Shown here in pieces: positions 5,567 to 63,736 of a DNA stretch of 64,000 nucleotides. Source of the stretch: Labia minor. Its lineage: Eukaryota; Arthropoda; Insecta; Dermaptera; Spongiphoridae. The stretch spans positions 31,159,172 to 31,223,171 of the forward strand of contig OY720344.1 of assembly GCA_963082975.1 (NCBI GenBank), given 5' to 3'. Both the position numbers and the translations under genes were made by a program. The stretch's first letter is position 1, and the number at the start of each line of letters is the position of its first letter. Under the pieces are notes generated by a model. The model was not told the origin of the DNA, searched no databases, and saw only the letters and a program-made list of their open reading frames with translations.

Positions 5567-6668
5567 TACAGTGGTACCTCGACATACGAGCTTAATTCGT
5601 TCCAAGACCTTGCTCGTATCTCAAATTGTTCGTATCTCAAAGCACTTCGCGCCATTAAAACTAATAGAAAAGCTTTTAATCCGTTCAAGTCCCCAAAAAT
5701 CACCTTAGTTTTGTTTTTTGTATGCTATTTTGAATCAAACAAATGTCTTTACGAGAAGGAACATTTATTTAAAAACAACAAAAATAATGGGAACATTTAA
5801 ATAAATAAAAATAAGAAGAATTTAAAAAAAAACTTAAATATCATCGCTTGTCTTTGCTTTTTTCGCCTCCCCTTGCTCATCTTGTTCAGCAAAGCGTTTT
5901 ACAAAATTGTATAAGGAAGTTTGTTTTTTCCTCCCCTTCAGGGTATTGCGAAAATGATTGAGACAGGTTTCGTTAAATAATTCCGAAGCCCGACCAGTTG
6001 CAACCTTTTCGGGGTGGTTTTTATCTACAAATTCAACAATTTTCTCCCACATTCCTAGGATCTCTTTAATTTCTTTTGAGGAGATGACATTTTCTGTTTC
6101 TGGCGCCTCTTCAGAAACTGTGTTTTCTTGGGTCACAACATCATTCTGTGTTTGTAGGTTTTGTAACTCTTCAGTTGCAAGCTCCTCAAAATGTTGCTCG
6201 ACGAGTTCGTTTACATCATTTTCACATCTACTTCTAGACCCAAAGATTTTCCCAAAGAAACAATCTCTTCTATTTCTGACACTTGAGATTCAGATTCTGC
6301 AATGATCCTTTCAGTTACAGCGTCAGGCCATAGCTTTTTCCATGCAGAAATTAATGTTCTTTTTGTGACACCCAGCCAGGCCTGATCAATAATTCTTAGA
6401 CATGTCACTATGTTAAAATGGTCTTTCCAAAATTCTCGAAGGGTCAGGTTTGTACTATCCGTCACTTCAAAGCATTTGCGGAACATGTGCTTTGTGTACA
6501 GCTTCTTAAAATTAGAAATGCGGGGGCAAATTGGTGCCGTGTGCATCGTCACGGGGTGCTCGTATCTCAAATCTTGCTCGTATCTCAAAGCAAAATATCG
6601 GTCGGTTGGCGGGTCGTATCTCAAAACACTCGTATGTTGGGGCACTCGTATGTCGAGGTACCATTGTA
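5567..6668 (-). mobile_element. Tigger/pogo DNA transposon remnant
   Basis: Terminal inverted repeats CAGTGGTACCTCGACATACG (left) and its near-complement ending at 6666, with TA at both outer edges, give a pogo/Tigger-type element of about 1.1 kb. The minus strand encodes the C-terminal half of a TIGD-type transposase in pieces: 6645-6211 (residues such as LREFWKDHFNI and WKKLWPDAV) and 6136-5834 (HFRNTLKGRKKQTSLYNFV). The N-terminal DNA-binding and DDE parts are missing or broken, so it is inactive. Confidence 0.85.
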
Positions 6669-26300: not shown

Positions 26301-29300
26301 TCATTGTTGCGCATTTCATTTTCCAGCGAGACATGATCCCCATCGACACGCCCTTCATCAGGTTAGCATTTTTTTATTAAAATAATAAATATTTAACATT
26401 GTAATTTATATAATAAGTTGTTGAATAAGTTCGCAGAAAGGAAATGAAGAAACCAATTTTTATTTGTAAAAATGATTTCAGTTTCCCTCAACTTCAATAC
26501 ACTTATTCCAATTGTCTTAATTTATGGATTCCTTGACTGTAGTGGTTTTCTGATAGCTCTGCAAAATAGCCCTCCACGGCAACTAAAGGGTCTTTCAACA
26601 AGGACGGGTCGATGTTAATAATCTGTTTTGGCGGCATCTGTCAAATCTGTCTTTCTGATTCAGTCACTGATACCAAATCATCATGGCAAGTTACAAAGTT
26701 GAGCAGCATGTGCAAATGATAAAAATTTATTATCAAAATGAGGGTTCGTTAGTGCAAACGGTGCGCGCATTGCGCCCATTTTACGGCAGACGCGGTGGCC
26801 CTTCAAAGTCTACTCTCCAACGATTGGTAATCTAATTTGAGACGACCGGTTCAGTAAACAACCAATCAACGCCTTTACGTCAAAAGAACGCCAGATCGGT
26901 CGAGAACATCGCCGCTGTACGTGAGAGTGTTCAGGAGACTCCTAGGCAGTCAATTTCTCGGCGTGCACAAGAACACGGCCTTAGGCAGACTTCCACTTGG
27001 AGAATTTCGCGTCGGGATTTGGGCCTGCATCCGTACAATATCCAACTGACAGCGAACGACACAATGCACATTCTCCTTGAACGGTTTGAGGGTAGGGTTA
27101 TCTCTCTCAGAGGTGACGTGAATTGGCCACCAAGATGTGATGTGATTTGATTCCGCTAGACTTTTTCTTGTGGGGTTTTCTGAAGTCGCAGGTCTATTCC
27201 AATAAGTCACAATCGACCGTTGCCCTAAAAGCCAACATAACATAGGCCATCGCTCAGATACAGCCGGATCTATGCAGCAGAGTCATTAAAAATTGGACCT
27301 CTCGGATTCGTGCCGCCATACGAAGCCGCGGCGGACATTTGGACGATGTCATATTCCATCCATAATGGCATAAAAAAAAAATAAATTTCGTTAAGATCTC
27401 ACACACATCTTGTTTTATCAATTTTATCATCGACCCGTCCTTGTTGAAAGACCCTTTATTACCTCTTTGTTTGAAGAAAATCATTTTCCATGGAGATATT
27501 ATTTGAGGAGTGGGAAGAACCAGAAGTCGGAATAGCTAAACCTGGCGAATAGGCTAGACGTTGCTGGATAGTCGTACTTGAATTCAGTTATTTTGAAACC
27601 CAAATTAACACTCAAAATATTGCTCACTGTACCCAATGAAATGCCAAAGCCTCTGTTAAATCTCTTTCAGTCAATCAACGATCTTCCAATAGCATATCTT
27701 GTATTTTTTCGATGATATTAACGAATTGATGGCGCTATGCGAACTTATTGAACAACTTAGTATACATAATGTTATCATAAAGTTAAAATTTAATTTTTAA
27801 GTTTTAATCTAATTCATTCACATATTGTTTGTATTAAGCAATTTCAGTTATTTATTGTTAATAAATAATTTAATACATTAATTTATTATTTATATTATAA
27901 TAATATATTTTACTAAATTTACGATATAAATTTAATTGATAATAAAATATAGTTATTTAATGACGGGGTTTAAGGCTCATTTGGCTCGAATTCGGGAAAG
28001 ATGTGGAACTGAAAGAAAATCAACAGCCAATGAAAATAATACACAATTACAAAATTCAACCGAGTCGACTTTGGGGACCTGGCATAGAAAACGTCGAAGA
28101 AGACATTTGAGTCCAACTTACTATGATGAATCTGCTTTTTTTGCTCCGTTCGAGGTAAAAAAAAATTAAATCTGACATTATTTTAAATATTTCATTTTTT
28201 CATATGACAAAAAAATATTCTTGGAAAAATTGAATCACTAATTGATTTAATTTGTTTGTGTTCTAATTTTCAATCAGAAACACTCTAGAATAACCTTAGT
28301 TTCTCCATTATTATTAACTATCATTAATTTGAATTAGAAAAAAAAACGTGTTACGATTTTTTATACTGAATTTATATATTATCAAATTTTTATAGTCAAT
28401 AAATTACGTTATTAAAATTATTTTTAATAAAAGTTTCAAATTTAATCGATGAGTTCCCTTGAAACATGAATTCCAATAAATTTTATCACCATTATTTATT
28501 TTTAGTAAATCAATAAGAGATGAATTTTTATATAAAAAATTTAACACTTTGACCTTTTATTTTTACAGTTCGATAGTACCGAAGAACAGGGGAGTGGACT
28601 CAGCCAATCTCCTTGGCATAATACTCTGGGTGTGCCAAATAGTCCTGAAATCAGTAAGGAAGAAGATGATGAATGGGGAGCTGGTGTTTTTCATTCTTCG
28701 ACTGCTTCACTTTCAAAAGTATATATTGCGGAATGTGGCAATCTCTCTATGAGAGGGTGAGATGAAAACAATGAAAAAAATATAAAAACTAAATTTTAGA
28801 ATTTTTGCAAGAAATCAATTAATAATAATTAGGATCACTCTAGACACAATTCAAAAGCATTAATTTTTTTTTGTTTTTGAACAATTACGAGTATGCCCTA
28901 TGAAAAATATTTGTTTTTTTTTATAAATTTATACATACACCTATATTAATAAAAGTAATTGGCTATAAGTTATTGATATATATTTCTACTTTGAATAATT
29001 AAATATAGGTAATAGAAAAAAAATTTGATTATAGTAATTGAATTATTTGTATTTCCTTATCAAGGGCACCTAAAGTTAAATGTTACCCTGCACCTGATGC
29101 CTTGAACCCATGCGAAGATATTATGGGTTTGGAGTGGTTGAGAGGATTTGTCTGGATTGTGGTTGTCACGGCTGTTTTTGGAAATCTCGCTGTTCTAATT
29201 GTTCTTCTCCATTCTCTTTTTGACCTCACGGTTGCCAAATTTCTAATGTGCCATTTGGCTTTTGCTGATTTGTGCATGGGTGCTTATCTACTCATTTTAG

Positions 29301-31179
29301 GAGCTATGGATCTGCATTCCAAAGGAGAATATTTTAATTATGCTTATGATTGGCAAAAAGGTAAAATTTATTTATTGTTCAATTTTGAAACGGTATTACC
29401 TTAAAATTCTCTTTTAGGATATGGTTGTCAGGTTGCTGGATTTTTGACAGTATTCGCCAGTCAATTATCTATCTATACTTTGACAATTTTAACTGTTGAG
29501 AGATGGTTTGCTATTACTCGTGCCATTTACCTGAATAAAAGATTAAAACTTCCAGCGGCCGCACATATTATGGCCTGGGGATGGATTTATAGCATTACAA
29601 TGGCAATTCTTCCATTATTCGGAGTCTCAAATTATTCTACCACGAGGTAAGAATTTTTAACTTGTAAGTTGTAAAAAATTTATATCAAATCTACTTACTC
29701 TACATATCTATATTAATTATAATTTCAGTATTTGCCTTCCAATGGAGACTCGTAGTGCATCTGATGTCGCCTATTTGGTATCACTTCTACTTGGGAATGG
29801 AATCGCATTCTTCCTTATTTGTCTCTGTTATGGTCAAATGTACTCCTCTCTATCTGGTGCTGCAACTGGAGAGTCAACTGTTGCTAAAAAGATGGCATTA
29901 TTGGTGCTCACCGACCTCGCTTGTTGGGCACCCATTGCATTTTTTGGCCTTACAGCAGTTGCTGGATATCCTTTGATAGATGTCACAAGATCCAAAATAC
30001 TACTCGTATTTTTTTATCCTTTAAATTCATGCGCAAATCCATATTTATATGCCATATTGACTAGTCAATATCGAAAGGATCTTACCATTCTTTTATCAAG
30101 GTAATAAATTTATTTTCATCTTTCTATTATATTATAAATATATTTGTCTATGTGTATAATTTTAAGGTTTTCGCTATATATTGTGTATATTCCTCTATAC
30201 AAGGAAACATTGAATTTCAAAGTCTAATTATTTTAACAAATTTTATCTATTTTGTAAATAAAACTGAGTTTCAGTCACTTTCTTTTCTTAGGTTTAAATC
30301 AGAGGTTCCCAAATTTTTTTGTGTCATAGACCCCTTGACATGTTTTTCGGTTTTGGGTAGACCCCTACTTACCTGATATTGATTTTTTGTAAATTTCTAT
30401 AATAATTTTACCTTTTTTTTAGAGCCATATTGAATTATAAGTATAATGAGAGTAAATGGGTACTATCAGTGTATGTTGAGATCCACTGTCATGGACCCCT
30501 ATTTTCACTTTATGGACATCCAAATTTTTTTTCGCTGACGTAGACCCCTTGCAGGTTGCCATAGACCCCTGGAGATTGATATAGAGCACTTTGGGAATCA
30601 CTGGTTTAAATGATGAGTTCAAAATTGTCCCTGATGGTTAATAATATCCTATTTTTTTATTTAAAAAAACTAATATATCCCTGTCCATATGAATATTCAT
30701 GTATCCATTACCATAATAATATTTATTTGGTGATTAGAGAAATTTTCCCTTAAATTTATTTTTATTCGTAGATATGGGATCTGCACTCAAAGAGCTCAAC
30801 AATATAAATTGGCATACTCGTTACCGACAACAACGCATATTCCGGTCTCCCTTGCAACACCAAAGCCTCCGAGACATGAGGTTAAACTCTTTCTTAAAAT
30901 CAAATCTCTTTTCTACAACAATTAATCTACTGTAAATAATAAAAATTACCTAGATAAACACTGTATATAAATTTTACAAAATATAGTATAAAAACTATAT
31001 TAAAAGCTAATTTATAAAAATAATTATATAACTTTTTTCTTGATACTCATAAATAAAAAAAATTGAATGCATTTTATAAATAAATAATTAATATTATTGT
31101 TACGAATTAATTTTTTCATTAGGATAATCGGGCGAATCAGCCATTGGTATCATCGGACTCAATCTCTGAATTATGCTAA
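9891..31179 (+). CDS. Lgr1: Glycoprotein-hormone-type leucine-rich-repeat GPCR (LGR1-like), 17 coding exons
   Basis: Complete coding gene of 796 codons; predicted plasma-membrane receptor. Coding exons: 9891-10126, 12383-12457, 15274-15348, 15426-15503, 18629-18703, 19664-19729, 19927-19995, 20070-20144, 20216-20333, 26269-26361, 27975-28154, 28569-28756, 29065-29360, 29418-29646, 29729-30100, 30772-30880, 31123-31179. All boundaries are GT-AG and phases agree throughout. Order: signal peptide, Cys-rich cap, one LRR per 66-78 bp exon with phase-2 introns, hinge with HCCAF, then seven helices resembling TSHR/FSHR (ERW for DRY, NPYLY in TM7). Type A LGRs bind heterodimeric cystine-knot hormones (GPA2/GPB5 in arthropods) and signal through Gs. 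The least certain boundary is the start of exon 11, where the acceptor has no pyrimidine tract. The ATG directly follows TTTCAG, so a 5' UTR exon or trans-splicing is possible. Confidence 0.92.
10511..10545 (+). repeat. Family A repeat fragment
   Basis: Short match to the family A left end (TTACCGATCGACGATAGGAA) in LGR1 intron 1; the rest is missing or diverged. Confidence 0.4.
11243..12282 (+). mobile_element. Non-autonomous Helitron 1, in LGR1 intron 1
   Basis: The 5' end is TCTTCTATAATAATAAAAGC preceded by A. The 3' end is CTAG (12279-12282) followed by T, and 9 nt upstream lies a perfect hairpin GAGCGCC-gaa-GGCGCTC. A second hairpin, GGGGGC-gga-GCCCCC, precedes it. This matches Helitron ends (TC...hairpin...CTRR inserted between A and T). 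No Rep/helicase is present. The interior holds a (TGTC/TGTT) microsatellite, a minus-oriented fragment of another Helitron 5' end (about 11530-11572) and a LINE 3' fragment (about 11875-12230). Confidence 0.8.
11875..12230 (+). mobile_element. Decayed LINE 3' fragment inside Helitron 1
   Basis: The segment translates in broken frames to reverse-transcriptase C-terminal text: GFEINSDKTK near 11892, GHMASMGEEN near 12053, then PFGRP-like residues. It matches the longer copies at 45640-46630 and 54001-54301, with shared wording and internal deletions. Confidence 0.65.
12865..13017 (-). mobile_element. tRNA-derived SINE, copy 1 (partial)
   Basis: On the minus strand, a B-box-like GGTTTGAGTCC sits in CCCGGGTTTGAGTCCCAGG, followed by the same body found in copies at 24765-24998 and 36303-36578 (AGGGAATTTC, ATCAAGAAAATCAAGG-type words). 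It lies in LGR1 intron 2. Confidence 0.65.
13080..13335. repeat. Mixed-composition block, probable unclassified repeat
   Basis: About 250 bp of relatively GC-balanced sequence within LGR1 intron 2. It has no open frame resembling a known protein and no convincing terminal repeats. Another block of similar character lies at 35000-35170. Confidence 0.3.
15985..17178 (-). mobile_element. Mariner-like element with plant/Stowaway-like termini
   Basis: Ends are CTCCCTCTG...CAGAGGGAG flanked by TA on both sides, with GGTATACATTT also mirrored inside both ends. The minus strand encodes broken transposase: an N-terminal helix-turn-helix part at about 16898-16640 (KIKNFPLNRRERIRSL) and a DDE-domain part at about 16400-16270 (TKVMFMAAVARPRYD). 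TKVMF..AVARPRFD-type text and CTCCCTCYGT ends are known from the plant mariner-like/Stowaway lineage. In-frame stops show it is inactive. It lies in LGR1 intron 4. Confidence 0.75.
17935..18540. mobile_element. Family B inverted-repeat element, copy 2
   Basis: Starts CTGGAGTGTCTCCACTCGAC and ends ACTATCTCTGGCGAGATAGT at 18540. The left 250 bp is nearly identical to copy 1. The extra right-hand part contains an ACATACATAC/CACACA microsatellite near 18390-18422 and text shared in character with copy 3 at 34373-34982. Non-coding. Confidence 0.65.
20823..21100 (+). repeat. Family A repeat, diverged partial copy
   Basis: Contains the left-end, CATATCTCCACGAATCATG, TAGCATGATG and GTCCGTCCGTCC blocks of family A, with many substitutions. 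It ends after the GGAAACGGGAAGTG block. It lies directly upstream of a better-preserved copy in LGR1 intron 9. Confidence 0.7.
21213..21844 (+). repeat. Family A repeat, full-length copy
   Basis: About 630 bp starting TTTTTACCGACCGACGATAG and ending CCACAGGTCAACTTATT. Blocks in order: left end, GTCCGTCC microsatellite, a second diverged left-end-like unit (GCGATCGACGATAGGAAGGG near 21484), a TGACGTCA-containing segment, and a right end with GTCGGTCGGTT, which is the inverted complement of the left-end ACCGACCGAC. No ORF. Confidence 0.75.
21887..22200 (-). mobile_element. Helitron 3' end, minus orientation
   Basis: Read on the minus strand, this ends with the GGGGGC/GCCCCC hairpin, then GAGCGCC-gaa-GGCGCTC, then TGACCAG and CTGG at 21890-21887, followed by T. 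CTGG satisfies the CTRR rule. It matches the other two Helitron 3' ends in the window. The 5' limit (toward higher coordinates) could not be placed, so the right boundary given is nominal. Confidence 0.65.
22640..22770 (-). mobile_element. LTR-retrotransposon gag-like fragment
   Basis: Part of a minus-strand open frame (22817-22608) reads VSVKIPHFWPWRPEVCFAQV. This resembles the start of many arthropod retrotransposon Gag proteins (KIPPFW..DPEVWFAQ). Only about 45 residues resemble the family and no LTR, protease or polymerase is nearby, so it is a relic. Confidence 0.5.
23340..23398 (+). repeat. Family A right-end fragment
   Basis: TTATTTCAAATCGTCGGCCG and a degenerate GTGCCTGGGCACAG correspond to the family A right end. 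A TGACGTCATCC block at 23131 may belong to the same relic. Confidence 0.45.
23790..24181. mobile_element. Tigger-type MITE
   Basis: Inverted ends: right end read inward TACAGTAATCGCTCTATATA, left end TACAATTAACACTCTATATA, with TA at the outer edges. The interior repeats GTTGCTTATA motifs. Non-coding; in LGR1 intron 9. Confidence 0.65.
24283..25376. mobile_element. Unclassified TIR element, split by a SINE
   Basis: Ends AGGAGAAAGTGGGGCAGATT (left) and the complement of AGGGAAAAGTGGGGCTGATT (right) form inverted repeats. GGTACATTCATA/TTCATACATT motifs recur inside. A minus-oriented SINE (24765-24998) is inserted within. An open frame at 24556-24804 gives no recognisable protein. A superfamily cannot be assigned. 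Confidence 0.55.
24765..24998 (-). mobile_element. tRNA-derived SINE, copy 2
   Basis: On the minus strand: a head with GGCGCTACGCAACATGGCG, B-box-like GGTTTAAGTCC within CCCGGGTTTAAGTCCCGGG, a body with CACCCAGCCCCTGGGATC, and a tail with CCATTCTACTTATCATGGGA. It is the same family as 36303-36578. Confidence 0.75.
26269..28756 (+). CDS. Lgr1: LGR1 hinge exons 10-12
   Basis: Exon 10 encodes residues 290-320 with LTYSFHCCAF, matching the AYPSHCCAF hinge signature of FSHR/LHR/TSHR. Exon 11 is basic (RKRRRRH) and contains YYDESAFFAPFE. Exon 12 is acidic and ends with AECGNLSMRG. The RKRRRRH run resembles a dibasic processing site, but this is inference. For exon 11, an AG at 27951-27952 has a normal context but gives the wrong phase. 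The in-frame choice is AAG then GCT at 27975. Confidence 0.75.
26414..27759 (-). mobile_element. Outer mariner-like element, host of a nested transposon
   Basis: Ends AGTTGTTGAATAAGTTCGCA (from 26416) and the near-complement ending 27757, with TA on each side. The right arm, minus strand, reads as a degraded mariner transposase: IEKIQDMLLEDR, LTERDL, ISLGTVSNILSVN, then AYSPGLAI and FPLLK-like text. The left arm (26430-26583) is its other end. A second DNA transposon (26584-27458) is inserted between the arms. It lies in LGR1 intron 10. Confidence 0.75.
26584..27458 (+). mobile_element. Inner Tc1/mariner-superfamily element, internally deleted
   Basis: Perfect or near-perfect inverted repeats AAGGGTCTTTCAACAAGGAC (from 26586) and its complement ending 27456, flanked by TA. 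The plus strand starts MASYKVEQHVQMIKIYYQNE at 26682, an HTH/DUF4817-like N-terminus, continues SVQETPRQSISRRAQ-like text, and ends with the arthropod DDE-transposase C-terminus (NWPPRSCDLTPLDFFLWGFL-like near 27122-27180, then RGGHLDDVIFHP and stop). A central deletion and frameshifts inactivate it. Confidence 0.75.
29065..31179 (+). CDS. Lgr1: LGR1 seven-transmembrane exons 13-17 and tail
   Basis: Residues 443-796. NPCEDIMG (457-464) precedes TM1, as in TSHR. TM1 has FGNLAVL (Asn483), TM2 has LAFADL, TM3 ends in ERW (569-571), intracellular loop 3 has AKKMALLVLTD, TM6 has CWAPI, and TM7 has NPYLY (721-725). The cytoplasmic tail contains CTQRAQQYK, corresponding to the FSHR CKRQAQAYR-type segment, and ends ISELC then TAA at 31177. 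A candidate poly(A) signal AATAAA lies at 31251. The 7TM region is interrupted by four introns, unlike the single-exon 7TM of vertebrate glycoprotein hormone receptors. Confidence 0.9.
30300..30603. mobile_element. hAT-type MITE with 8-bp target duplication
   Basis: Starts CAGAGGTTCCCAAATTTTTT and ends TTTGGGAATCACTG. The 8-bp GTTTAAAT occurs immediately outside both ends (30292-30299 and 30604-30611). The interior has repeated TAGACCCCT motifs. It lies in LGR1 intron 15, 200 bp after a 7TM exon. Confidence 0.85.
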
Positions 31180-37058: not shown

Positions 37059-40000
37059 TTAATTATTGATGTTATTAAAATTCTCTAATATCTTTGTGGA
37101 ATATTCTTTTACTAATGAAGACAAATTTGTGGTTGAGGTTAAATTTCTCCCTTTGAATGCCATTGTTGATAATTTATTTTGATAATTTATTTGAAATTGT
37201 AACAATATAGTAAGGTTTGTAAAAATAGTACTTAATATCTAAAATATTTTTAATCTATTAATAAAAATGAAAAAAGCTATTAAAATTAAAATTAGGATCT
37301 TCTTACAGTAATTAATATTGTGATATTAATTGAAAAAAATCCGGCTGCTTTAAATTTAATCTTTCTTTGAAGAATTTGTAAAAAAAATATTTTTAGCTGG
37401 AAATAATAATTATTTATGGTAACTTAATATCTTTGTCTTATATATCTTACATTAGTTAAATTGTTTAATGTTATTTCCACTCAAAAATATAATACAGTGG
37501 GTGATCGATTAACGAACAGTTCGGACAATGAACAAAAGAGATAACGAACACATTCACGAAAGATTTTTATGTTCGGACACCGACCACATATTCGGACAAC
37601 GAACTAAGCCGAATTCTAACGAATATTAACTTCCAAAGGACCTGGGAGATATTTTGGCAGATTTCCCCTGTCTGTCCTTTCAATTTCTACCACCCAATAC
37701 GAATTCGCTGATTCAGCCGATGGATCAGGAGGTTATTGTGGGTTTCAAGAAATTGAACTCGTGCGCTGTTTCACCGGTATTTTGAAGCAAGCCAATTCTC
37801 GTCAACAATGACGTTAAAATATTTTTGAAGAGAAAAATTTGACATTGTTGAAGCTATACGAATCATTGAAAAGGCGTGGTCAGAAGTCACACAGCGTCAG
37901 TTGATTTTTGCTTGGTGAAAGATGTGTCCTTCCTTCGTCCAAGGAGAAGATCAGGCGGACACCCATGAAATTATAGCTGAAATTTTGACAACTGCCAGAG
38001 ATCTGGAATTGGAGGTGAATGAGGATGACATAAAAGAGCTCATAATGGACCATGAAGAACAATTGAGGACAGTAGAACTCCAAGAGCTCTTGAAAGAAGA
38101 ACACCAAGAAATAAATCAAAATGTGTCTGAACAAAAGAGAACAAATGCCGACATCTGACATTAAAGATCTTTTGAAGAAGTGGGAGGATGAAAGATCAAT
38201 GGTTTTAAAATGGCACCCAAATCCAGCTGACGTCAATAGGGCTGAAGTTATCTATAATGATAATGCTATCACCCATTTTCGGAATATCCTTAAAAAAAGA
38301 AAAAAGCAATCGACGTTAGATATATTTTTTAACGCCTATATTGATTAAAGTGCAAAATTATAGGTATTTTTTATTTTTTGAAATAAATTAACCGAAAACA
38401 TATATATCCTTTTTTAATATTTAGGGTCTCTGGAACAAATTAATCGATTTTAAATAAAAATCTATGGAAAATCAATGATCGGTTAACGATCAATTCGGAT
38501 AGTGAACATAGTCTTGGAACGGATTATGTTCGTTAACCGATCACCCACTGTACATTTATTAATTCAACTCCAGTAAAAGAAGAGGATATATTAGTAGAAA
38601 CTTCTAATTCCTCTTATCTTAATAGATTTGATAAAAGTTAATTGAATATATATATATATATAAATTATTCGATTAAAAATTCTAAATCGTCCAATTTTTT
38701 TTTTTTGTATATGAATTTTAAATACAGGTTAATCCATTTTGATTTTCCAACATACGAATACAAATTAGAAGTACGGAAGTTAATTTGTCTAGTATTATTA
38801 TCAAATTTAACATCCAAATATTTTTAAAAAAATTATAATTTGATTTTTAAAATAAAATTATATTGTAAATATATTTTATACATATATTTGTCGAGGAAAC
38901 TATAAGATAATTTTTATTCATTGGTTGCCTATGTTTATTATTTTATATAAAAATATTAATATAAACAAATAATATCATATTAACTGACTCTTGAGTAAAA
39001 TTGCATTAGAATTATACAATAAAAATGTATTTGAGAGTGTCACTCCAAAATATTTTAAACAAGAAAATGTTAAATTATTCGATATTAATTACCATTTGTA
39101 TGACAGCTAAATTAGTCTCCTTAACCGAATATCTATGAAGAATAGTTGTAGTGCATTTTGCCTGAAAATTTCATAAAACAAAATAAAACCAAAAGAAATT
39201 TAAAATTACATAATTTATCAATCTAAGTCAGTGATTCTCAAGCTATTTTTTACCGACCGACGATAGTAAGGGAGGTATTGTTTTCACACCAAATTTCACA
39301 TGTGGAGATTTTTACATATCTCCACGAATCATGCATTTTCTAAACAGAAAAAAGTATTTTTAGCATGATGTCTGTCCGTCCGTCCGTCTGTCCGTCTGTC
39401 CGTCTGTCCGTCCGTCCGTCCGTATAGATGTGTACAGCCTGAACGGCTCAACCGATTTTGATGAAATTTGGTATATTTACTTAATGCATCAGTGGGATGA
39501 ATTGATCAACTTTTGGTGCAATTCCGGAAACCGGAAGTGGTAGTATTAGCGATCGACGATAGGAAGGAAAGGGTTATTTTCACACCAAAGGAGATTTTTT
39601 TATATATCACCACGAATCATGCACTTTGTATTAGTTTTATCCTCGAGAAAAATCATATTTATTAGTTTTTTCTTGATTTAAAATTATATGACGTCATCCA
39701 GCCATTCATGACGTCACAGCCTGGTCTTGCATATATATTATAAATAAAATAAAATTAAAAATGTTTATATTTATTATTTATGTATCCATATCTGTTTTTT
39801 ATTACATTAATAGATATATTAAAATTATTTGAAATTGTTTCTGTAGCTGGAAATTAATTTATTTCAAACAGTCGGTCGGTTCGGACCTGGCCACAGGTCA
39901 ACTTATTTTACCGAGGTACACTTTTAACGGTTTAAAAATTTGGCGGCACACAAAGAAAATGATAAGTGTAATAATCATACTAATTTTTACCTTTTTTTTT

Positions 40001-41791
40001 TTGTTTAGAACCATATTAAAAAAACTGAAAAAAGTCGTAAATGTTTAAGAGCCTGATCGCAAAAACATTTTACTTACCTTTTTTTACATACATATAAAAT
40101 AAATAAGTACTTTTTCTTAATTTAAACTTTACATTTGTAAAATTTGGCGGCACATTTAGAAAATCTCGCGGCACAGTGGTTGAGAATCACTGATCTAAGT
40201 AATAATTATCTATATGTATTATAATATAAGTACACTACATCATAAGAAGCTTTCTTCTTCATAATTCAAAGCTTCTGAAGTAACAGTCGAAATGCGCATA
40301 AAGTAAAGAATATATAATAAATAAAATTGAAATTTCACCAAATGTCTAACTAATAATTATTCATAATATGTTGCTTATTTTTTAAGTTTAATTTTACATA
40401 ATAATCATAAATTTAAATAATAATATAAGTATATTTTGTCAAAGTAAAAAAATAACACATAGTACATACATATTTTATTAATAATGTATCATAATAAAAA
40501 TTTAAGTTTTTTTAAAATAAATGCAAACCAAAAATTCAAATATTTATCATTACGCATTAGATAAAAATTGATAGATTTTGTAAGTTTTATTAATTTCCAA
40601 TTTTAGTAACACATTAGTTTCAATTATACCTGATTAATTGTAGATTGTGTAGCCCATGAGATTAGTATAATTAAGATAATATAAGTTATGAAATATATAA
40701 CAAAATCGATTGCAAATAAATATCCCCTAAAATCATATAAAATATAATAGATAGTCGTAAAAAGTGCATTGCCAATTATCACTAATGCAGCAGCAAAGAT
40801 ATTCATTACAATGAATCCAAAAACTTTGTTCAATTCATTACTTAATTCACAGATGGTCGCATGCATTTTTGCCCAATTTCCTATCATACAAATTTTTGTA
40901 GGAATGTTATCCTCTTCCAAAGGAGACACATTTACTAAACAACAAATAAAAAGACAATGATCCATTAATATAAATTAAATATAAGTATTAGTATTATATA
41001 AAAATTTCAAAAACAAAAAATATCAAAATATAATTAATAGATAATATGTTTTCATTAAAATATTATTATTTCGCTTATTTACAAGTTGATATATATTAGT
41101 TTTGATTGAATAATTTATCATAAACTTAAATAGATTTTTTCAATAGCTATATTATTATTACAAAATATTAATCTAAATCATTTTTACCATTTATAATTGA
41201 TTCGCTGATGTTTTTATTTAAATGTTTTATTTTAAAGTTGATCAATATAACGAATAGTATATAAAGTGATGTACAATGAACAATTATCACATTATAATGA
41301 ACAATTGGAAAGATATATAGCACAGAATGCTTTAAAGGTGTTATAAAATTGAATACTATAAATTGATAATAGAGAAAGAAAAGATTATAAAAGATATTAA
41401 ACCAGATTAACATAAAAGAGATAGATGATAGTTTTTCAAAATGTTCTTTCCAAAATGCAGACTTATCACCGGTTTGATTCATTAAATTAAAAAGATTCAT
41501 GAATGATTTTGCATGAATAATTTGCCAGGTATAGAAAACAAAAAAACCAATCACATTTGTTGTATGACTGATCTTAACTGAAATACCATAAACAGAGCGT
41601 ATAAAAACTTCCGAATTATGAAAGACATATTTGCATGTGATTATAAAAATATTAGCGGCAAAACAATAAATAAGTGCTGGATAAGAAATTTTGAAATTAC
41701 GATTGAAATTAGAACCGCTATAGAAAATAGGCGATAATCCAAAAAAATTATGAATTACAAAAAACATTTGGATTGATTTCATGAAATCCAT
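37059..41791 (-). CDS. Gustatory receptor (Gr family, 7tm_7), five exons
   Basis: Complete gene of 415 codons plus stop; predicted ligand-gated cation channel/chemoreceptor in the membrane. Exons on the minus strand: 41791-41188, 40934-40630, 39161-39093, 37396-37307, 37238-37059. All introns are GT-AG; phases 1,0,0,0 agree. Exon 1 has the Gr start NFFGLSPIFY. Exon 2 has HATICELSNELNKVFGF. Exons 3-5 give the family C-terminus: AKCTTTILHRY, then LQILQRKIKFKAAGFFSIN, then TILLQFQ in TM7. The usual TYxxxxxQF is altered to TNLTILLQF. The last three phase-0 introns match the conserved Gr pattern. An AATAAA lies about 56 bp past the stop (37003-36998). Introns 2 and 3 contain hAT and Tigger insertions, but every splice site is intact, so the gene may still work. 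The specific ligand cannot be inferred. Confidence 0.87.
37493..38552 (+). mobile_element. Tigger/pogo transposon remnant in Gr intron 3
   Basis: Ends CAGTGGGTGATCGATTAACG and CGTTAACCGATCACCCACTG with TA on both sides. The plus strand encodes the C-terminal end of a Tigger transposase in two frames (37922-38158 and 38121-38348), ending NAITHFRNILKKRKKQSTLD. This is the same domain end as in the element at 5567-6668, but the TIRs differ. The 5' transposase part is deleted. Confidence 0.85.
38664..38822 (-). other. Open stretch of unknown meaning in Gr intron 3
   Basis: On the minus strand about 52 codons are open (starting KYLDVKFDNNTRQINF) with a more balanced residue mix than the surrounding AT-rich sequence. 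No splice sites or family match were evident; it is not part of the Gr model. Confidence 0.15.
39229..40192. mobile_element. hAT element in Gr intron 2, split by a family A repeat
   Basis: Starts CAGTGATTCTCAAGC and ends GAGAATCACTG. The 8-bp ATCTAAGT flanks both ends (39221-39228 and 40193-40200). TTGGCGGCACA occurs twice in the right arm. A full family A repeat (39247-39907) interrupts the left arm. No transposase ORF. Confidence 0.85.
39247..39907 (+). repeat. Family A repeat, full-length copy nested in a hAT element
   Basis: About 660 bp from TTTTTACCGACCGACGATAG to GGTCAACTTATT, with an expanded GTCC/GTCT tract at 39370-39422. TTTTACC occurs at both junctions of the split host element. 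This may be a target duplication, or it may be part of the repeat itself. Confidence 0.8.
40630..40934 (-). CDS. Gustatory receptor exon 2
   Basis: Starts after TTGTTTAG with NVSPLEED and ends STINQ before GTATAA. It contains the amphipathic Gr loop (KMHATICELSNELNKVFG) and two membrane segments. Confidence 0.85.
41188..41791 (-). CDS. Gustatory receptor exon 1
   Basis: Encodes residues 1-201 plus one base, with about four hydrophobic membrane segments. The ATG at 41791 is chosen because it precedes the Gr-type N-terminus (IHNFFGLSPI). The exon ends AATG before GTAAAA. Confidence 0.85.
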
Positions 41792-42579
41792 GTTCTAAGT
41801 GTGGTAATCTTTTAAAGATTGCTTGTCATCGATTAAACATTCATTCAAATGCATTTCCTCTATTCGGTTAAATCATTTATCATCGGTACGATCGTTGAAT
41901 TATACATAATTAATGTGACAGATATACGAGAGAAATATAGAAAATATTATTTAAGGGAAATTTCAACATATTAAAATATGAGAGTTATATTAATCAATTA
42001 TATATCAATTATGATTTAGTTTTTTATTATGAAAAGTAATTAGGGTAAACGTACCATTGGTGGACCACTGGCTGGTAATTGACTATTTGATAGATTTTTG
42101 ATCAAAATAATTTTTTTAATTTATAATTAAGCTCGAGATATCGATAAATATCAAGAAGAGCCTCTTCCGGATTGCTGCATTTATAATAGTATTGTGAATC
42201 TTTTAAAACACGAGGTAAAGGTTCTTGCATTTTAAGGAGTTTCTTATGCAAATCGTTAAGGATTCACTTTATTTTCAATATATTATGTTTTAATTAATAA
42301 TAATTACAAACCAAAAGTTAATTTCAATATTTGATACTACAAATTTTTTACATCAATGTAGGGAATTTCGTTGTCTTGGGGTTGTTTTATCAAAAAATAT
42401 CGATTCGGTTTAGAAATAATTCCAAAATAATATCGTTTTTATTTTAAAGAAAACAAGATAAAACAGTATAAAGATAAGTAAATGCAAATATAACTTCTTC
42501 AGTTCTTGATAATAATACTTCTTCTTAAATCTTCGTAACGATGGGTGAGCAGAGTGCAGAGATAAGGAGCTGATTATCA

Positions 42580-49392: not shown

Positions 49393-49567
49393 AATAAATA
49401 AATAAAATAAACAAAACGATAATATTAGATTACAAAAAAAGATTGTTTGGCGTTTTCTAAAAAAGTATAAAAACCAGAGTGGAAATAGATACAGAGAAGA
49501 GTATATAAATGAAAAACGTAAACTTAGAAGGCTATATAAAGAAATCAAGAAAAAAGAAAATGAGGAA

Positions 49568-51736
49568 ATGTGGAAAAGGATAAGCAAATGCAAAGATAAT
49601 GAGGAATTTTGGAAAATTATAAAAATCAAAAGAAATAAAAAGGAAGGATGTACAATTACAGATATGGAAAGATGGACAAACCATTTCAAGGAGTTGTTAG
49701 AGGGTGACGAAAGAACTCAAAAGGCGATAAAACCTGTAGAAGAGAAAGTAGAAGTAGATGATGCCGATAAGGAGTTTATTAATGAAGACTTAAAATTAGA
49801 GGAGCTGGAATATGAAATGAGAAAACTGAAGAGGAATAAAGCTGCGGGTTCCGATGGAATAATAAATGAATTTATAAAGGTATCCAGCCAAAATATAAAA
49901 CTGAAAATATTACATCTATTTAATGAAGTGTGGAGTACAGGAAGGATTCCTAACGAATGGAGGAAAGGAATTATAGTGCCTATATTCAAGAGCGGTAATA
50001 AAAACGACACTAGCAATTATAGGGGAATATCTATCCTAAACGTACTTTACAAAATATTCGCATCGATAATGGCGAAAAGGTTAAGAAGATGGTTGGAAGT
50101 AAAAGAGGTTATAACAGAGAGTCAATCTGGCTTTAGACAAAATTACGGTACAAGAGACAATATATTTGTATTGGAAACGTTAATAGAAAATAAATTAAAA
50201 CGAAAGAAAGGGAAACTCTTTGCTTTATTTGTAGATTTTAGGGCGGCTTTCGACAAAATAAATAGAGACCGGTTATTCGAGAAGATAGAGGAAGTTGGGC
50301 TGAGGGGAAGATTATTTTATGTTTTAAGAAATATTTATAAAGAAACACGGAATATAGTGAGAGTGAATGGAGAGGAAGGGAAGGAATTCTTTACGAGGAA
50401 AGGGGTAAGGCAGGGTTGTCCTCTGAGCCCAACACTCTTCAATATATATATAAATGATTTAGAGAAAGACAGTATGAGAAAGAATATAGGAGGAACAGTT
50501 ATTGGTAATACAAAAATAAACTGCATGAAGTTTGCTGATGACGTAGTTTTGTTGGCGGATGATTTCGAGGGATTAAAAGAGATGGCTAAATCCCTCGAGA
50601 TCTACGCTAGAGAGAATGATCTAGAGATAAATATAAACAAGACAAAATATATGATTTTTGGGAATAGAGGAAGAAGAAAAAAATATCCCAAATTATGCCT
50701 AAATGAAAAGGAAATAGAAGAAGTAAAAAACTTTAGATACCTTGGGATAGTCTTTTCAAATATAGGCTCTATGAATATGCACGTAAAGACACAAGCAGCT
50801 AGAGCTACAGTTCTGGTAAATAAGCTAGGGGCAATTATGAGAGATTGTGGTTCAGCAGAGAAGAAACTGTTGGCCTTCAACTCTATAGTGAGTTCAACCA
50901 TGACATATGGAGCTGAGATCACGGGATTGAGGGAAAACAAACAACTAGAGGTAGTTCAGGCCAGATATATAAAAATATGTTTCGGCCTTGAAAAAAATAC
51001 TCCACATTATATCTGGCAGAGCGAACTGGGCCAGAACAGCATTTGGCTTCTACAAGTCAAAAAAGTAATAGAATATGTACTAAGAGTGAACTCATTGGAA
51101 GAACATAGATGGCCAAAGATATGCCTGAGGGAAGTATTAAGAGGAATAAAAAATAATGAGGCGACACAATGGGGGAAGCATCTAAAAAATTTGTGTGACA
51201 AGATGGGGAGTGGAGAAATTTTATTAGGAATAATGTGTGAATGGGATATGACGACCATCAGACGGGCTGCGGAGAATGGTTTTCAAAAGCTAATGGAACA
51301 AGAAGTTCAAGAGCGTTGGAGAAGAATCGACAATTCGTCCTACTCCAAAGAATACAAACTCCTAAAGAAAACAGCATTGAGAGAAGAATACTGGTTTGAA
51401 ACGGATAGAAGGTGGAACAGAAGAGTTGCATGGGGAAGAATGAGAATGGGAAATGGGATAAAAGGATTGAAAGATTGGTATGAATGTGAGTCTTGCAGAT
51501 TGTGTGGATGGGAAATAGAAAATTTGGAGCATGTGATGAGCTGTGAGAGAGTGAGAAGTGAAGTGAGTGAAAATTTGAGAGAGTGGAGAGAAAATTGTGG
51601 ACAGAATGTGAATTGGTTGAAAATGTTGACTGAGAGCATAAATGAGAAGATGTGTGAATGGTGGTGTGTGTGGGAGGGGGAAATAAAGAAGGAAGAGAGC
51701 AAGAAGTCAAAAAAGACGGAAGAGATTGGAAAATGA
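49568..51736 (+). CDS. LINE reverse transcriptase ORF (722 codons from first ATG)
   Basis: RNA-directed DNA polymerase of a non-LTR retrotransposon; copies element RNA into the genome. Motifs: KAAGSDGI (about residue 96), QSGFRQNYGTRDN, ALFVDFRAAFDKINR, GVRQGCPLSPTLFNIYIND, and catalytic MKFADDVVLLADD (FADD at about residues 320-323). Near the C-terminus is a CX2CX8HX4C-type zinc knuckle (CRLCGWEIENLEHVMSC). The frame is open upstream of the ATG for about 50 codons (e.g. YKNQSGNRYREEYINEK), so the ATG is only the first methionine of a truncated protein. No internal stop or frameshift suggests a recent insertion. Clade (I/R1/Jockey-like) not certain. Confidence 0.88.
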   Translation: MWKRISKCKDNEEFWKIIKIKRNKKEGCTITDMERWTNHFKELLEGDERTQKAIKPVEEKVEVDDADKEFINEDLKLEELEYEMRKLKRNKAAGSDGIINEFIKVSSQNIKLKILHLFNEVWSTGRIPNEWRKGIIVPIFKSGNKNDTSNYRGISILNVLYKIFASIMAKRLRRWLEVKEVITESQSGFRQNYGTRDNIFVLETLIENKLKRKKGKLFALFVDFRAAFDKINRDRLFEKIEEVGLRGRLFYVLRNIYKETRNIVRVNGEEGKEFFTRKGVRQGCPLSPTLFNIYINDLEKDSMRKNIGGTVIGNTKINCMKFADDVVLLADDFEGLKEMAKSLEIYARENDLEININKTKYMIFGNRGRRKKYPKLCLNEKEIEEVKNFRYLGIVFSNIGSMNMHVKTQAARATVLVNKLGAIMRDCGSAEKKLLAFNSIVSSTMTYGAEITGLRENKQLEVVQARYIKICFGLEKNTPHYIWQSELGQNSIWLLQVKKVIEYVLRVNSLEEHRWPKICLREVLRGIKNNEATQWGKHLKNLCDKMGSGEILLGIMCEWDMTTIRRAAENGFQKLMEQEVQERWRRIDNSSYSKEYKLLKKTALREEYWFETDRRWNRRVAWGRMRMGNGIKGLKDWYECESCRLCGWEIENLEHVMSCERVRSEVSENLREWRENCGQNVNWLKMLTESINEKMCEWWCVWEGEIKKEESKKSKKTEEIGK

Positions 51737-53646: not shown

Positions 53647-56017
53647 TTAGAAGTCTGATAATGTTTTATGTTTGTTTTTGTTTATTGATTTACTTAATAA
53701 TTCATCTGAAACTAAAATTTCCCAATTAAAGGGTTCTCTTCTGGAATGGCAGAAGTTAGGCAAATTGATCTCTTCAAATTCCCATTTACCAGCGCCATCA
53801 TCATCATCATGGGCTGTTTTCTCTTTAATAGTAACCAACGCAAGATAAGGCACATCTTGTACTAAACAAAACATTTGCTCGTAAGTTCTTGGCTCTTGAC
53901 CAACCATTTGCCTCGAGCATACTTCCAAAGTAGAAGAATGACCCACTAATAGTATATCACCACCTGAAACATTAATCTTTTCTTAGTAAAAACAAAGGAA
54001 TAGTATTAACACATAAAGTCTTAACATACAAATTGTAGAATTTGAAAATGTAGAAAAATTTAAATATTTAGGTTCTGTAATCACAGAGGATAATAATATT
54101 CGAGAAGAGTTTAAAGCGAGGTTGCAATCGGGAAACGCCTGTTATCATCCAGTAAAGGGGCTTATAATGTGGGAAGGGACGTGATAGAGATGGGCGAGGG
54201 TAGGGATTGGAGGTTAGTGGTTCAGAGAATAGGGATACTTGGACAAGTGTGGTTGCTGCGGCCAAGAACTTTCGAGTTACCTAGAGCCACTGAGATAGAT
54301 AGATTTTAAAAAGATGTTTATTTCTATATATACTCCTCACCTTCTCTAGAATGTTTTAACTCTATAAAATATTTTTTTCTTTTAAATTATTTAATAATAA
54401 TAATAAGTTTTTATCTTTTGACAAAAGATTCTCACCTAAGAAGATTATATTGTCATATTTAAAACTTAGTTTAAATATTAAATACATGTAACTATGAACA
54501 TAACTTGGAATTATTTATAACTTACTATTAGTATTAAATAATTTTTTCTTACAGATATTTCAAGTTTTATGCAGAATTTGCAAGAGCTTTTTTATTAACT
54601 TTATTAATTAGAAGCAATTTGCAACTGAGTATCAGTATAGATGAAACTGTCTTAAATGACAGAAGTTGTCGTAACTAGTTTTAAATTTTTAAAAACAGTG
54701 AATAATGAAAGATCAAAAAGTTAAGTAAGACGGAATTGGAAGCAAAGTCAGAAAAAAATCGTGCCAAAAAACAAACTAATTTTTTATAGAAAACGTCGAA
54801 AATTTATTTGAGCTCTTTTAAAAAATAATTATCGATTACCTTCAGCTTGGGTACATTCAAGGAAATATTTTAAAATTTTATAATTCCGTTCATAAAAGAA
54901 ATCCACATGTTCCTCCAAGGAGAGATTTTCTCGTGCAAATGATGCTTTATACTTTCTATTAATATTAAACCCATGATCAATCAATTCATCATAAGTCATC
55001 CAATCAGGGATTTCAACTTCTTTATACCATCCAAGGTATTCAAAAAAACCTGGCTCAATATTGATGGGTATTTTTTCTTTGAGCTTCATGGCGCTCAAAA
55101 TGGCATCGCATGTCTGAATACATCGGAGTGCGGGCGCTGCAATGGCATGTTTTACATTGTATTTGAGATCGGCTAACCCCTCGCCCGTTAATGTTGCCTG
55201 GAAGGTTCCCACCTGAGTTAAGGGAGAATCGAGACGGAATCCATCTTTGCCCTTTGAGCGTTTTGGTAGGGAACGGGGCATATTCAAATCTGCTCTCACA
55301 TAATCCCCTGAAATTAAAAAAAATTGAATGATTTGGACTAAAATTTTATTCCATTTTAATTTAAAGATAGATGATCTTGAGATATAATAATAATAATAAT
55401 AATAAAGATAAACAAGAAAAAAGAAAAGAACGGATCAGGTTTACATGTTGTTCATAGATTGAGTATTATTATTATTATTATTATTATTAATAATAATTTA
55501 TAGTTCATTTTAAGCTATTCTTTTTATATACCTTTAAAAAAATTTCACTTTTCAAATATAATAATAATTCTAATAAATTATTATTTTAATGGTCAAACAA
55601 AATAATTATATCTTTTACTTTAGAATTGAATTAATGTTCTAAATTTATTGAATTTAGACAAGATAAAGTTATTATAAATTAAATTAAATTGTGAGTTTCT
55701 AGATATTTTTTATCTAATATAAAAAAGCCATATAAAATATATTTCACTAAAAGTGTTTTAAAATTACAATTTTTATTTTTTTTTTATTTTTTGAGATGAA
55801 ATAAAGTGGAAATATTTTAAATTTAATAAATATAGTTAAATATTTTTAATAAGTATATTATAAACCAAAAAAAATCTATATCAATATAATTATTGTCATA
55901 ATTTCAATCACCATTTTCATTGAAACACATTGAAATCCATTTATTATAGCCGTAATTTAAATCGCATCGTTCTCCGTGACGGACCAAAAAGACACGTCTG
56001 CATTGAGGTGATGACAT
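53647..56017 (-). CDS. Histidine-phosphatase (PGM-like) of the UBASH3/ecdysteroid-phosphate phosphatase family
   Basis: Three exons, minus strand: 56017-55912, 55307-54840, 53963-53647; GT-AG introns with consistent phase 1; 296 aa if the ATG at 56017 is the start. Histidine phosphatase fold: VRHGER (Arg13, His14, Arg17), APALRCIQT (Arg97), IEPGFFEY (Glu120) and VGHSST (His200) supply the catalytic residues; NMPRSLPKR is a UBASH3/Sts feature. UBASH3/Sts proteins dephosphorylate phosphotyrosine. The insect relative (EPPase) releases free ecdysteroid from its phosphate; which applies here is inference. The UBA and SH3 domains typical of UBASH3 (over 600 aa) are not seen in the 3.7 kb upstream. 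The ATG sits immediately after TTCGTAG, so it is either the true start behind a 5' UTR intron or an internal codon after an upstream exon. Confidence 0.87.
54001..54301 (+). mobile_element. LINE 3' fragment in phosphatase intron 2
   Basis: Plus strand, opposite to the gene. Broken frames read FKYLGSVITEDNNIREEF then RLQSGNACY, and the end carries GATA repeats. It has an internal deletion relative to the copy at 45950-46630. Confidence 0.75.
55377..55490. repeat. Inverted ATA/ATT trinucleotide tracts
   Basis: A run of (ATA)n at about 55385-55404 is followed 60 bp later by (ATT)n at 55466-55490, able to pair as a hairpin. It lies in phosphatase intron 1. Confidence 0.6.
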
Positions 56018-59752: not shown

Positions 59753-62700
59753 TTATGGTTCTCGTTGCATTGAATGATGACATTGTAGAGTCCATTGAGC
59801 ATTTGGATTTTCTTTATAAACAGCCATGACGATTGATGAATGTTCCAAACGACGACGATCTAATAAAAAAATAACATGTTTTTAATTAAAATAGGTATAT
59901 TAATTTATTTTGAAGAATACTTTTCAAAAGATTATTTATTATTTTTAATTTTAGATCATTTTTTTCTAATAATAAAATTGGTAATTGTTTACAAAACGCG
60001 AAACTTCAGGGATTTGAATTAAATTTTGCCAGTGGATTTCTTTTTAATTCCAAAGAAACTTTCCTTATACAATATTTCTCGGTATTTTCCAGTTTACGAG
60101 ATAAAAATTATTAAAATATGACAAATAAACTAGTTATGAATGAGCAGCCATTTAATAATGTTTTATTGACTTGTATATAGAAAAATTATTTATTAAAATT
60201 AATTATTTCTTTAATTTTCATATATCCAAACTTAACTAAAAAAAAACGATAATTAGTGGAGCTCTCTGCTAATCAAATGAATAAAACATGGTAGCTAAAT
60301 AGAATGTAATTACTCGTAAATGGATTTACATGCAAATTTTAATAATTTTTATCTCATAAACTAGAAGAGACCGAGAAATATTGTATAAGGAAAGTTTCAT
60401 TGGAATTAAAAAAGGAAACCTTTGGTAAAGTTTCATCTAAATCCCTGAAGCTTCCTGTTTTGGAAACAATTACCCATAAATCTCTATTTTATACTAATTG
60501 TAAGAGAAACTGACAACACACAGGTTAATTTCTGAAATATATATATATAATATGTTTTTGGAATCAGGGGACTTTTATATGTGTAAATTTAAGATTTAGG
60601 TAAAAAACAACTTTAATTATATATATATTCCCAATATTTATTTTGTAAGTTTATTTAAGAAAAATATATAATTTAAAGTCAACTGATATTCCCCTCACTG
60701 TCACTATTCTCGAACAAAAATATTCTCTTATTTGTATAGATCAATGCATTAATAATTATCAATGATTCATCAATGAATAAATTATATAAAACTTATGTTC
60801 AAATAGGGGTATATAAGAATCTTGAAATGTAATTTCATAGTAATCTATAGACAAACTGACAGACATGAAAAAATATAAAGTTATATTTTATTTTCTACTT
60901 GAAGATATGCAAAATCTTTCAAATTCTGAGCAATGTGCAGACAAACACCTTTTTATATAAATATAGATTTTACAAGATAGAAAATATTTTCTATACTCAC
61001 TGATATTTCCTCCAACTTCATACAAACAATGGGTTGCTAATTGCGTTTCCGCTCTAGCTTGGAGACAAGGAGGTGTTCCACTGTTTGTAGAAGTATTCTT
61101 TTTAATAAACCTAGAATTTGACTTTTCATTATTTTTTCTCGAAAGTGCTGCTTCCTCTAATAAACTAGAAAAAAATGGCAGGATAGTAAAATATTAATCT
61201 ATAAAATAAATAAAAAGTAAATAATTTAACATGCATCTATCTAATATAATATTTACTTAAGTACAAGTTGCCCCGCGGTTAGTGTTGGTGTTAATTTCAA
61301 AGCTCTTTCTGATATTCCTAATTCTTTAGCTGATATTCGAATTACACCTTCTTGAAAATCCACTTCATTGATAATTTTACGTGTGATTGGTTCCCTCAAA
61401 CGACGTCCTAAAAGTCTTTGCATCTGATAAAAATGAAAAAACAAATAATTATATTATTGAACAAAAATTATTACAAAATTATTAATAATAAATAAATATA
61501 TAAATTATTTATTTTTCTAATCTTTTGTTAGACCATATTTGAGAAGTGTTTATTATTAATAAAAAGTTAAATCCTTAATGTAAACACTCAAATTAAAAAA
61601 TCTTTTACATACATATGCATATAAAAACAATTAATCAATAAAATGACAATCAATTTAAAAGTCCAAATATTCAAAAAATAAATTTATTTTAGATTCTCAT
61701 CTGCTAATTTGTTGTTTTATTTATTTATTTATTTATTTTTATTATTAAACTTACCGCAGTAGCATTTTCTTTATGTCCACGTCGATAAGCTTCAATTTCG
61801 TTTTGTCTTCTTAATTGAGCAAGTAAATGTTCTGGCACTCTCCATAAATCGTCTTGACAATTTAACATTCTTTCTATTAACTGACAACAAACGGTTGCTG
61901 CCTCAGCTTGTTCATTTGGTGATTGTTTCGATAATTGTCGAACAAAACTGTTGGTATTTATTTATTATTATTATTATAATAAATAATATTATAATTAATT
62001 TCATAAATAAATATTAATAAATACCGGGGATGAAAAATATTTGGAGCCAAGACTATGGCCAAATTTCGTAAAGCCATACGATTGATTCCTTCATAACTGG
62101 CAACCCGATGAAGGAAATCAAAAAGTCGACGAAGAGTAGCACTATGCTCTGAAGGGAGTAGCATTACAAGTAGATTAAGTGCCATATTCCTTGCAGAAAT
62201 TGGCATTTCTAGAAAAAAAGTTAATATTTTTAACGAATAATTATTAATTAAAAAATATGTTTAAGTAATACATTTCTAATTTTGTTAAAAATTTATATAC
62301 CAAAATAAGCATAAAATTCTTAGTATTTTCATTTAAGTAAAAATTTAAATTTTTAATTTAATAATTTTAATTAATTAATTTAATTTAATTTTTAATATTT
62401 AACCCAAACTTTAATAAATATAAATCATGTGTGTAATTTTTATTATATTATTCATACTATTTTTCTTACTGTAATTCGTTTTCACTTCAATTTACATAGA
62501 AAGACTAAAAATTCAACAACGTTAATATTTAAATTTGGAATATCACATGGGTCTAAGATTTTCATTAAAATTAAATAAACTGAAATGGCAATTTATATTA
62601 GATATAAGACTATAAAGATTTGGATGAATTGGTTTTATATAAATGCTCTTTTTAATTTATAAACAATTCTTAATAGTACAATAGAATCTGACTTTAAATA

Positions 62701-63736
62701 AATAAAAATTTGGATAAATTTTTATTATAATTGTTGTAATTGATATTAGTGTAATGCAGTCTAATCAGGTTATTTTTACGTTGTTTTTTGATTTTATATT
62801 TTAATAATCTTTTTACCATGGACAAGATAAAACATCTGCATATATTCTTCAGTTAATAGGGGTTGTGGTAATTCACGTAGCCATCGTTTCAGGAGCGTTG
62901 CTACATCATGAGGAGATGCTAGATCAAATGAATGAGCTGCCCCAAAAGAAGCATCCACTTTCATACGAAGAGAATCGACTCTTTGTTTTGGACCTGACAC
63001 CCGAAGCAAACCTTCTTCTTCAAGGCCCTCGCGTTCCAAATAAGCTAACATTTCATGAAAAACTCGTGGAACTGGCAACGGATCCACACCATTTTGAATA
63101 TCTTTTTCAATAAGGGCCGCAATCGGTTGGCCAAAAACATTGCATTCTAAAATAATAAAAAATTAATTAAAAAATAAGATTAAATAATATTAACTTTATA
63201 ATATAAATTTTGTTTTAATTACCATTTTTTGTACGACTTCTTTTTCTCGCTTTACGTTTATTAAAAGGAATATTATGTGACTCAAAAAGACCTGTAACTT
63301 CTAAAAGTACAAGTGGACGAAGACGGATTATATCTTCAACATCTAATGAATCCAACCAAGTTCGTCCAATTTGATCTTCCACTGGAAGATTATTTATAGG
63401 AGGAGAGCCATGATGAAGGGAAGATGGAATGTGTGGTAACGAAACATGATGGGATGATCTAAATAAAAATATTTTTAAATCTAAATATTATTAAGAAAAT
63501 TTAAAAAAAAATATAAAAGAAAAAATAAATGGAAATTTTTATTTTCAATTCAATATAATTTTAATTTAAAAAAAATTCAAGGCATATATTTTAGCAAATT
63601 TTATTTATTAACTTTTCATTAACTTATTTAATAAATAAGTAATTATTTAAAATTTTTCAATTTATATATATTTTTTTTAAATCCAAACCAAAAATAAAAA
63701 CATGTGCAAAGGTATTAAGAGTTATTTTATCGTTTC

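Follow-up and report, generated by a model that had tools for sequence, protein, structure and literature searches.

Does the locus at positions 37059–41791 of a 64,000-nucleotide stretch of the genome of the dermapteran Labia minor (contig OY720344.1, positions 31,159,172 to 31,223,171; hereafter the window) hold a complete and working chemoreceptor gene, although most of its proposed exons are too short to stand out as open reading frames? An initial annotation had proposed such a gene, assigned to the gustatory receptors (Grs). We analyzed this candidate within its own genome (604 Mb in 71 contigs, in which the window is C1:31159172-31223171). As judged from its sequence, the window gene is a member of the arthropod Gr (7tm_7) family, and hence of a known kind, although its pore motif and its tail are mildly unusual. 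We estimate a probability of roughly 93% that it is an intact Gr gene, likely encoding a channel subunit of chemosensory neurons, and that it is one of a duplicated pair in which both copies are open and nonsynonymous divergence (dN) is lower than synonymous divergence (dS).

Gene model and family

The gene is encoded on the reverse strand in five exons, in window coordinates:

41188..41791, reverse strand, exon 1 (604 nt; residues 1-201 and the first base of codon 202)
40630..40934, reverse strand, exon 2 (305 nt; residues 202-303)
39093..39161, reverse strand, exon 3 (69 nt; residues 304-326, AKCTTTILHRYSVKETNLAVIQM; both flanking introns phase 0)
37307..37396, reverse strand, exon 4 (90 nt; residues 327-356, LKIFFLQILQRKIKFKAAGFFSINITILIT; both flanking introns phase 0)
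37059..37238, reverse strand, exon 5 (180 nt including the stop; residues 357-415; the TM7/S7b motif followed by a tail)

Joined, the exons form 1248 nt that encode 415 amino acids with a terminal stop only; splice joining and the open frame thus reproduce the five exons, their coordinates and lengths, and the product as originally proposed. The ATG is at 41791, and exon 1 ends in a phase-1 donor, G/GTAAAA (slashes denote splice junctions). Exon 2 is bordered by the acceptor TTGTTTAG and by the phase-0 donor GTATAA. The four introns measure 253, 1468, 1696 and 68 nt, and all four have GT-AG borders. Phase-0 splicing, as initially described, applies to introns 2-4 but not to the junction of exons 1 and 2, which is phase 1 (AAT G/TA). 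Stop-to-stop frames of at least 90 amino acids cover only two of the five exons, namely exon 1 (41168-41794, 208 amino acids) and exon 2 (40624-40974, 116 amino acids), in line with the earlier remark that only these are visible as long open reading frames. Since the G+C content is similar in the coding sequence (25%), the introns (13.8 to 29.9%) and the window (25.9%), the small exons are not revealed by composition alone.

A profile search of the 415-residue product against Pfam 7tm_7 (PF08395), proposed beforehand as a check, returned a match of 98.9 bits (E-value 5.1e-28; curated cut-off 26.6 bits) that aligns residues 10-374 with positions 4-369 of the 370-position profile; the lack of such a match, named at the outset as grounds for refutation, was therefore not seen. 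Joined exons 3-5 alone match the same profile with 48 bits (E-value 1.4e-12), which means that the three added short exons carry family signal of their own and do restore the Gr C-terminus, as had been suggested. Exon 2 alone matches at positions 217-294 (E-value 1.2e-5), its 25.2 bits falling just below the cut-off. Odorant receptors (7tm_6, PF02949) belong to the same superfamily, and the product gives a 7tm_6 match with an E-value of 0.29; however, this amounts to 10.6 bits (cut-off 25.8) versus 98.9 bits for 7tm_7, and the window motif ends in QF. A sequence search of the Protein Data Bank (PDB; E-value at most 1) returned five distinct sequences, five of five being Grs: 8uvt, which we take to be BmGr9; 8vc1; 8zdz; and 8jm9 and 8x82, both named sugar-taste receptor 43a. 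Their E-values are 3.7e-8 to 2.6e-5, with alignments within residues 195-373 at most. It is thus extremely improbable that the gene encodes an odorant receptor instead of a Gr.

The position of the last intron agrees with this assignment. Most insect Gr genes have three C-terminal phase-0 introns, the last of them six codons before the TM7 motif, according to PMC2680840, and exon 5 begins with ILSTIF followed by TN, which places the last intron six codons before the motif as described there. We scanned the window and 33 of 43 loci (L009-L018, short matches of the window-protein search, were set aside) for an AG acceptor six codons ahead of a Gr-like motif with T or I as first residue and QF, SS, SG, SN or ST as its ending. 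The four resulting rows are the window gene, a paralogue, a relative at C1:9.02 Mb and one unrelated frame.

An open paralogue and pairwise constraint

Searched with the window protein (E-value at most 1), the genome yields 10 places: five in the window gene itself, three in a close paralogue at C1:8.72 Mb, one in a relative at C1:9.0176 Mb, and one at C1:122.24 Mb, a locus that we take to be Gr43a-like (motif TYLVILMQF). Given this separate Gr43a-like locus, the window gene is probably not the Gr43a orthologue. Gr43a-type fructose receptors are marked by a TPY motif in S5 (PMC11100771), and the window protein resembles the 43a sequences of the PDB weakly. The close paralogue is located as follows:

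C1:8718731-8724420, reverse strand, close paralogue of the window gene (in locus L019)

Its exons of 607, 296, 69, 90 and 168 nt, with phases and GT-AG sites as in the window gene, encode 409 amino acids without an internal stop. Identical residues number 281 of 408 aligned (69%), and in exon 1 the amino acid identity is 77.6%. All four introns lie at the same places in both copies, so that the pair arose by duplication at the DNA level on C1 and not as a retrocopy; its members are at about 8.72 and 31.20 Mb. Noncoding identity amounts to 146/216 upstream, 47/64 in intron 4 and 162/287 downstream, the last figure being roughly the chance level for AT-rich DNA by our estimate, which was not computed. 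The relative at C1:9.0176 Mb shows 25% identity in exon 1, and its first intron is likewise phase 1 and at the same place (TATGGAG/GTATAC ... TTTTAG/AGGATAAAG). An intron of this relative contains a transposase remnant seen in frames (L020, about 6400-7100), presumably mariner-like. A genome family scan that reads exon by exon, with 111 of 239 first-look candidates scored, has neither the window gene nor its paralogue among the 58 matches listed at an E-value of 0.001.

The divergence of the two copies was evaluated for selection. With the Nei-Gojobori method (NG86), dN is 0.186 and dS 0.331 over 408 codons, a ratio of 0.56, and four dN/dS estimators give ratios of 0.52 to 0.69. By segment, the NG86 values (dN/dS) are 0.128/0.322 for exon 1, 0.281/0.312 for exon 2, 0.291/0.325 for exon 3, 0.201/0.362 for exon 4, 0.078/0.367 for the motif part of exon 5 and 0.259/0.398 for the tail. 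We simulated neutral evolution in six settings of 300 runs each (1800 runs); none of the 1800 runs remained free of stops (the mean number of stops lay between 11.0 and 19.7), and a ratio as low as observed or lower was reached in 17. The lack of stop-free neutral runs and the ratio of 0.56 together indicate that selection has kept the window gene and its paralogue open. The test is pairwise; it does not resolve the share of constraint that falls on each copy, and it would miss a loss that happened very recently. The initial description of the gene as looking functional is hence supported on evolutionary grounds (an intact paralogue with the same exon structure, and dN below dS).

The large intronic transposons noted at the outset are present in introns 2 and 3, as seen from terminal inverted repeats and multiple copies in the genome:

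39229..40192, no strand assigned, hAT-like nonautonomous element in intron 2 (terminal inverted repeats of 13 bp, CAGTGATTCTCAA; 8-bp target duplication, ATCTAAGT)
37494..38551, no strand assigned, Tigger/pogo-like element in intron 3 (terminal inverted repeats; stop-riddled frames)

The first element, which we take to be hAT-like by these marks, holds a nested high-copy repeat of about 665 bp (about 39247-39911) and has at least 50 matches in its own genome, itself included. The second, presumably Tigger/pogo from its features and from a weak DDE_1 match of another part of the window that looks similar, has 26-nt arms (37493-37518 and 38527-38552) that are 96% complementary, three forward frames full of stops, and, if it is counted as well, 82 matches in the genome. 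The similar-looking stretch consists of overlapping frames on the reverse strand at 5834-6690 that appear to be a Tigger-like transposase remnant, with a DDE_1 E-value of 0.0055, below cut-off, for 6214-6690; the profile search gave no transposase match for 5837-6289. Neither intronic element is matched in the corresponding introns of the paralogue (plus strand compared, E-value 1e-3), and the joined element flanks give spurious AT-rich matches only; intron 3 of the paralogue does contain the inner repeat, in a copy that matches at 83.6%.

Could the gene then be a recently silenced pseudogene, its frame still open and its expression lost, for example through these transposons? The two insertions would fit such a history, since the nested repeat in one of them is very young (copies elsewhere are up to 98% identical) and the elements are unmatched at the paralogue on the one strand compared, as would the uneven constraint and the motif departures described below. 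However, the exons and splice sites are untouched by either element, the frame is free of stops and frameshifts, all GT-AG sites are unbroken, and no neutral run in any setting stayed stop-free, although the last test is blind to very recent loss. Intronic elements are, moreover, usual in repeat-rich genomes. We therefore consider silencing very unlikely, and retain the reading of an intact Gr gene.

The TM7 motif and the C-terminal tail

Exon 5 carries the motif 363-TNLTILLQF-371, in which the T, Q and F of TYhhhhhQF are kept, Asn stands for Tyr, and Thr366 occupies the second of the "h" positions. The BmGr9 motif is 436-TYLVILIQF-444 (PMC11100771), and alignment with it pairs Tyr437 with Asn364, Val439 with Thr366, and the gate residues Ile440, Gln443 and Phe444 with Ile367, Gln370 and Phe371. 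Where the initial annotation saw Asn-Leu in place of the usual Tyr, the alignment agrees that Tyr is replaced, but by Asn alone, the Leu being ordinary. The motif reads INITILLQF in the paralogue and TYLIILLQF in the C1:9.02 Mb relative.

Tyr is found at the motif position in 80.7% of GRs (PMC11100771), so that Asn does not exclude membership in the family. In BmGr9 this Tyr contacts the heads of pore-penetrating lipids (PMC11100771), the Y437A variant still responds to fructose, and Y437F alters the K/Na permeability ratio (PMC9643425). Because Y437A BmGr9 is responsive and Tyr is lacking in about 19% of Grs, Asn need not mean a dead channel. We predict a working channel, with which Asn may be compatible, and which may be altered in its selectivity for ions or in its coupling to lipids. 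Present in both open copies, Asn is a natural variant at a position where the change of Tyr to Phe affects ion selectivity in BmGr9 (PMC9643425). A limited literature search found no printed Asn variant of the Gr TYhhhhhQF motif.

Elsewhere in the genome we read 22 Gr TM7 ends, and 22 of 22 have TY; as they were chosen by profile match, with 21 from one tandem cluster on C9 and one Gr43a-like, they do not give a frequency estimate. The tandem Gr cluster itself (C9:49.58-49.74 Mb, G000, within L025-L038) has motif ends of TYLIVLFSS or similar, with both residues of the gate pair QF replaced in all 21 ends read and a stop a few residues further on. An entire Gr cluster without the QF pair may hold more interest than the window gene.

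Past the motif, the window protein continues for 44 amino acids (residues 372-415) and the paralogue for 40. An apparent tail of 28 residues at the Gr43a-like locus indicates that long tails are not unique to the pair. The C1:9.02 Mb relative ends four residues after QF, and Asn and the long tail, both of which it lacks, probably arose in the ancestor that the two copies share. The same early stop, together with the weak constraint on the tail (dN 0.26, dS 0.40), could be taken to mean that the gene is a real Gr with another 3' end, the tail being untranslated or replaced through a further splice or an alternative last exon. In both copies, however, the tail is in frame and has whole-codon gaps only, its 38 aligned codons are 55% identical, and neither has an in-frame stop directly past QF. 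Another 3' end is accordingly unlikely, and we prefer the gene model in which the tail is translated. Tail sequons occur at NLT 388 and NLS 394 in the window gene and at NTT 386, NLT 390 and NTT 398 in the paralogue, but may be due to chance, the stretch being rich in Asn and Thr.

From what is known of the family, the product would most likely be a Gr subunit of a tetrameric ligand-gated cation channel expressed in chemosensory neurons. In the mechanism that we envisage, an agonist in the extracellular pocket would cause S5 to move S7b, whereupon the Gln and Phe of the motif would open the gate; the 44-residue tail past S7b would lie outside the cell, as in the Gr family. A further and rather doubtful proposal is that the pair forms a small Gr lineage with a retuned pore (Asn, and a polar residue at a motif position that is mostly hydrophobic) and a 40-44-residue extracellular tail bearing two or three N-glycosylation sequons. 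If true, the channels of this lineage would be changed in their ion selectivity or in their coupling to lipids, and their external tail would be glycosylated.

Contrary evidence, surroundings and known receptors

Several observations weigh against an intact Gr gene under constraint. First, the splice sites are inferred from sequence, and none of the 22 other Gr ends read in this genome has an intron where the last one lies here, which makes this intron less than universal. Second, exon 1 by itself matches no Pfam profile in the search by exon, so that support for the N-terminal half comes from the profile match of the joined product and from the paralogue. A Kyte-Doolittle scan (19-residue window, threshold at least 1.4) finds six peaks, not seven, and six also in the paralogue. 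Third, constraint is uneven, dN nearly equaling dS in exons 2 and 3, and the mutation model matters: with a transition bias of 4, the strongest used, 16 of 600 neutral runs reach the observed ratio. Finally, the Asn and the Thr by which the gene departs from the pore motif might reflect relaxed function.

The window contains other coding sequence. On the forward strand, 29042-30104 holds two exons of a rhodopsin-type G-protein-coupled receptor (7tm_1 E-values 1.4e-4, below cut-off, and 7.9e-9), presumably a glycoprotein-hormone-type LGR receptor, and 49406-51736 holds an open frame of 776 codons with a reverse transcriptase domain (RVT_1, E-value 5.9e-42), probably a non-LTR (long terminal repeat) retrotransposon with a long intact frame. 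On the reverse strand are two exons for a protein with a RhoGAP domain at 61961-63162 (E-values 2.2e-14 and 7.8e-19) and exons of the histidine phosphatase superfamily at 53650-55434 (54832-55434 matches His_Phos_1 with an E-value of 7.2e-7, whereas the profile search gave no match for 53650-53982), from a protein that we assume is possibly UBASH3/Sts-like.

The locus illustrates that short, AT-rich, transposon-interrupted Gr genes are recoverable from sequence alone. Its closest counterpart, the paralogue at C1:8.72 Mb, shares the five exons, their phases, the motif Asn and the long tail; it differs in its motif (INITILLQF, with Ile also for Thr), in its tail of 40 residues and in its intron 1, which is 839 nt long compared with 253 nt in the window gene. 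The solved Gr structures (8uvt, 8jm9, 8x82, 8vc1 and 8zdz) have the same S7b gate residues I, Q and F, and their likeness to the window gene is confined to residues 195-373. With the Grs of Pfam 7tm_7 the window gene has in common the full-length profile, three C-terminal phase-0 introns of which the last lies six codons before the TM7 motif, and the QF ending of that motif, whereas it differs from them in having Asn instead of Tyr in the motif, Thr where a hydrophobic residue is usual, an additional mid-gene phase-1 intron, and a tail of 44 residues past the motif.

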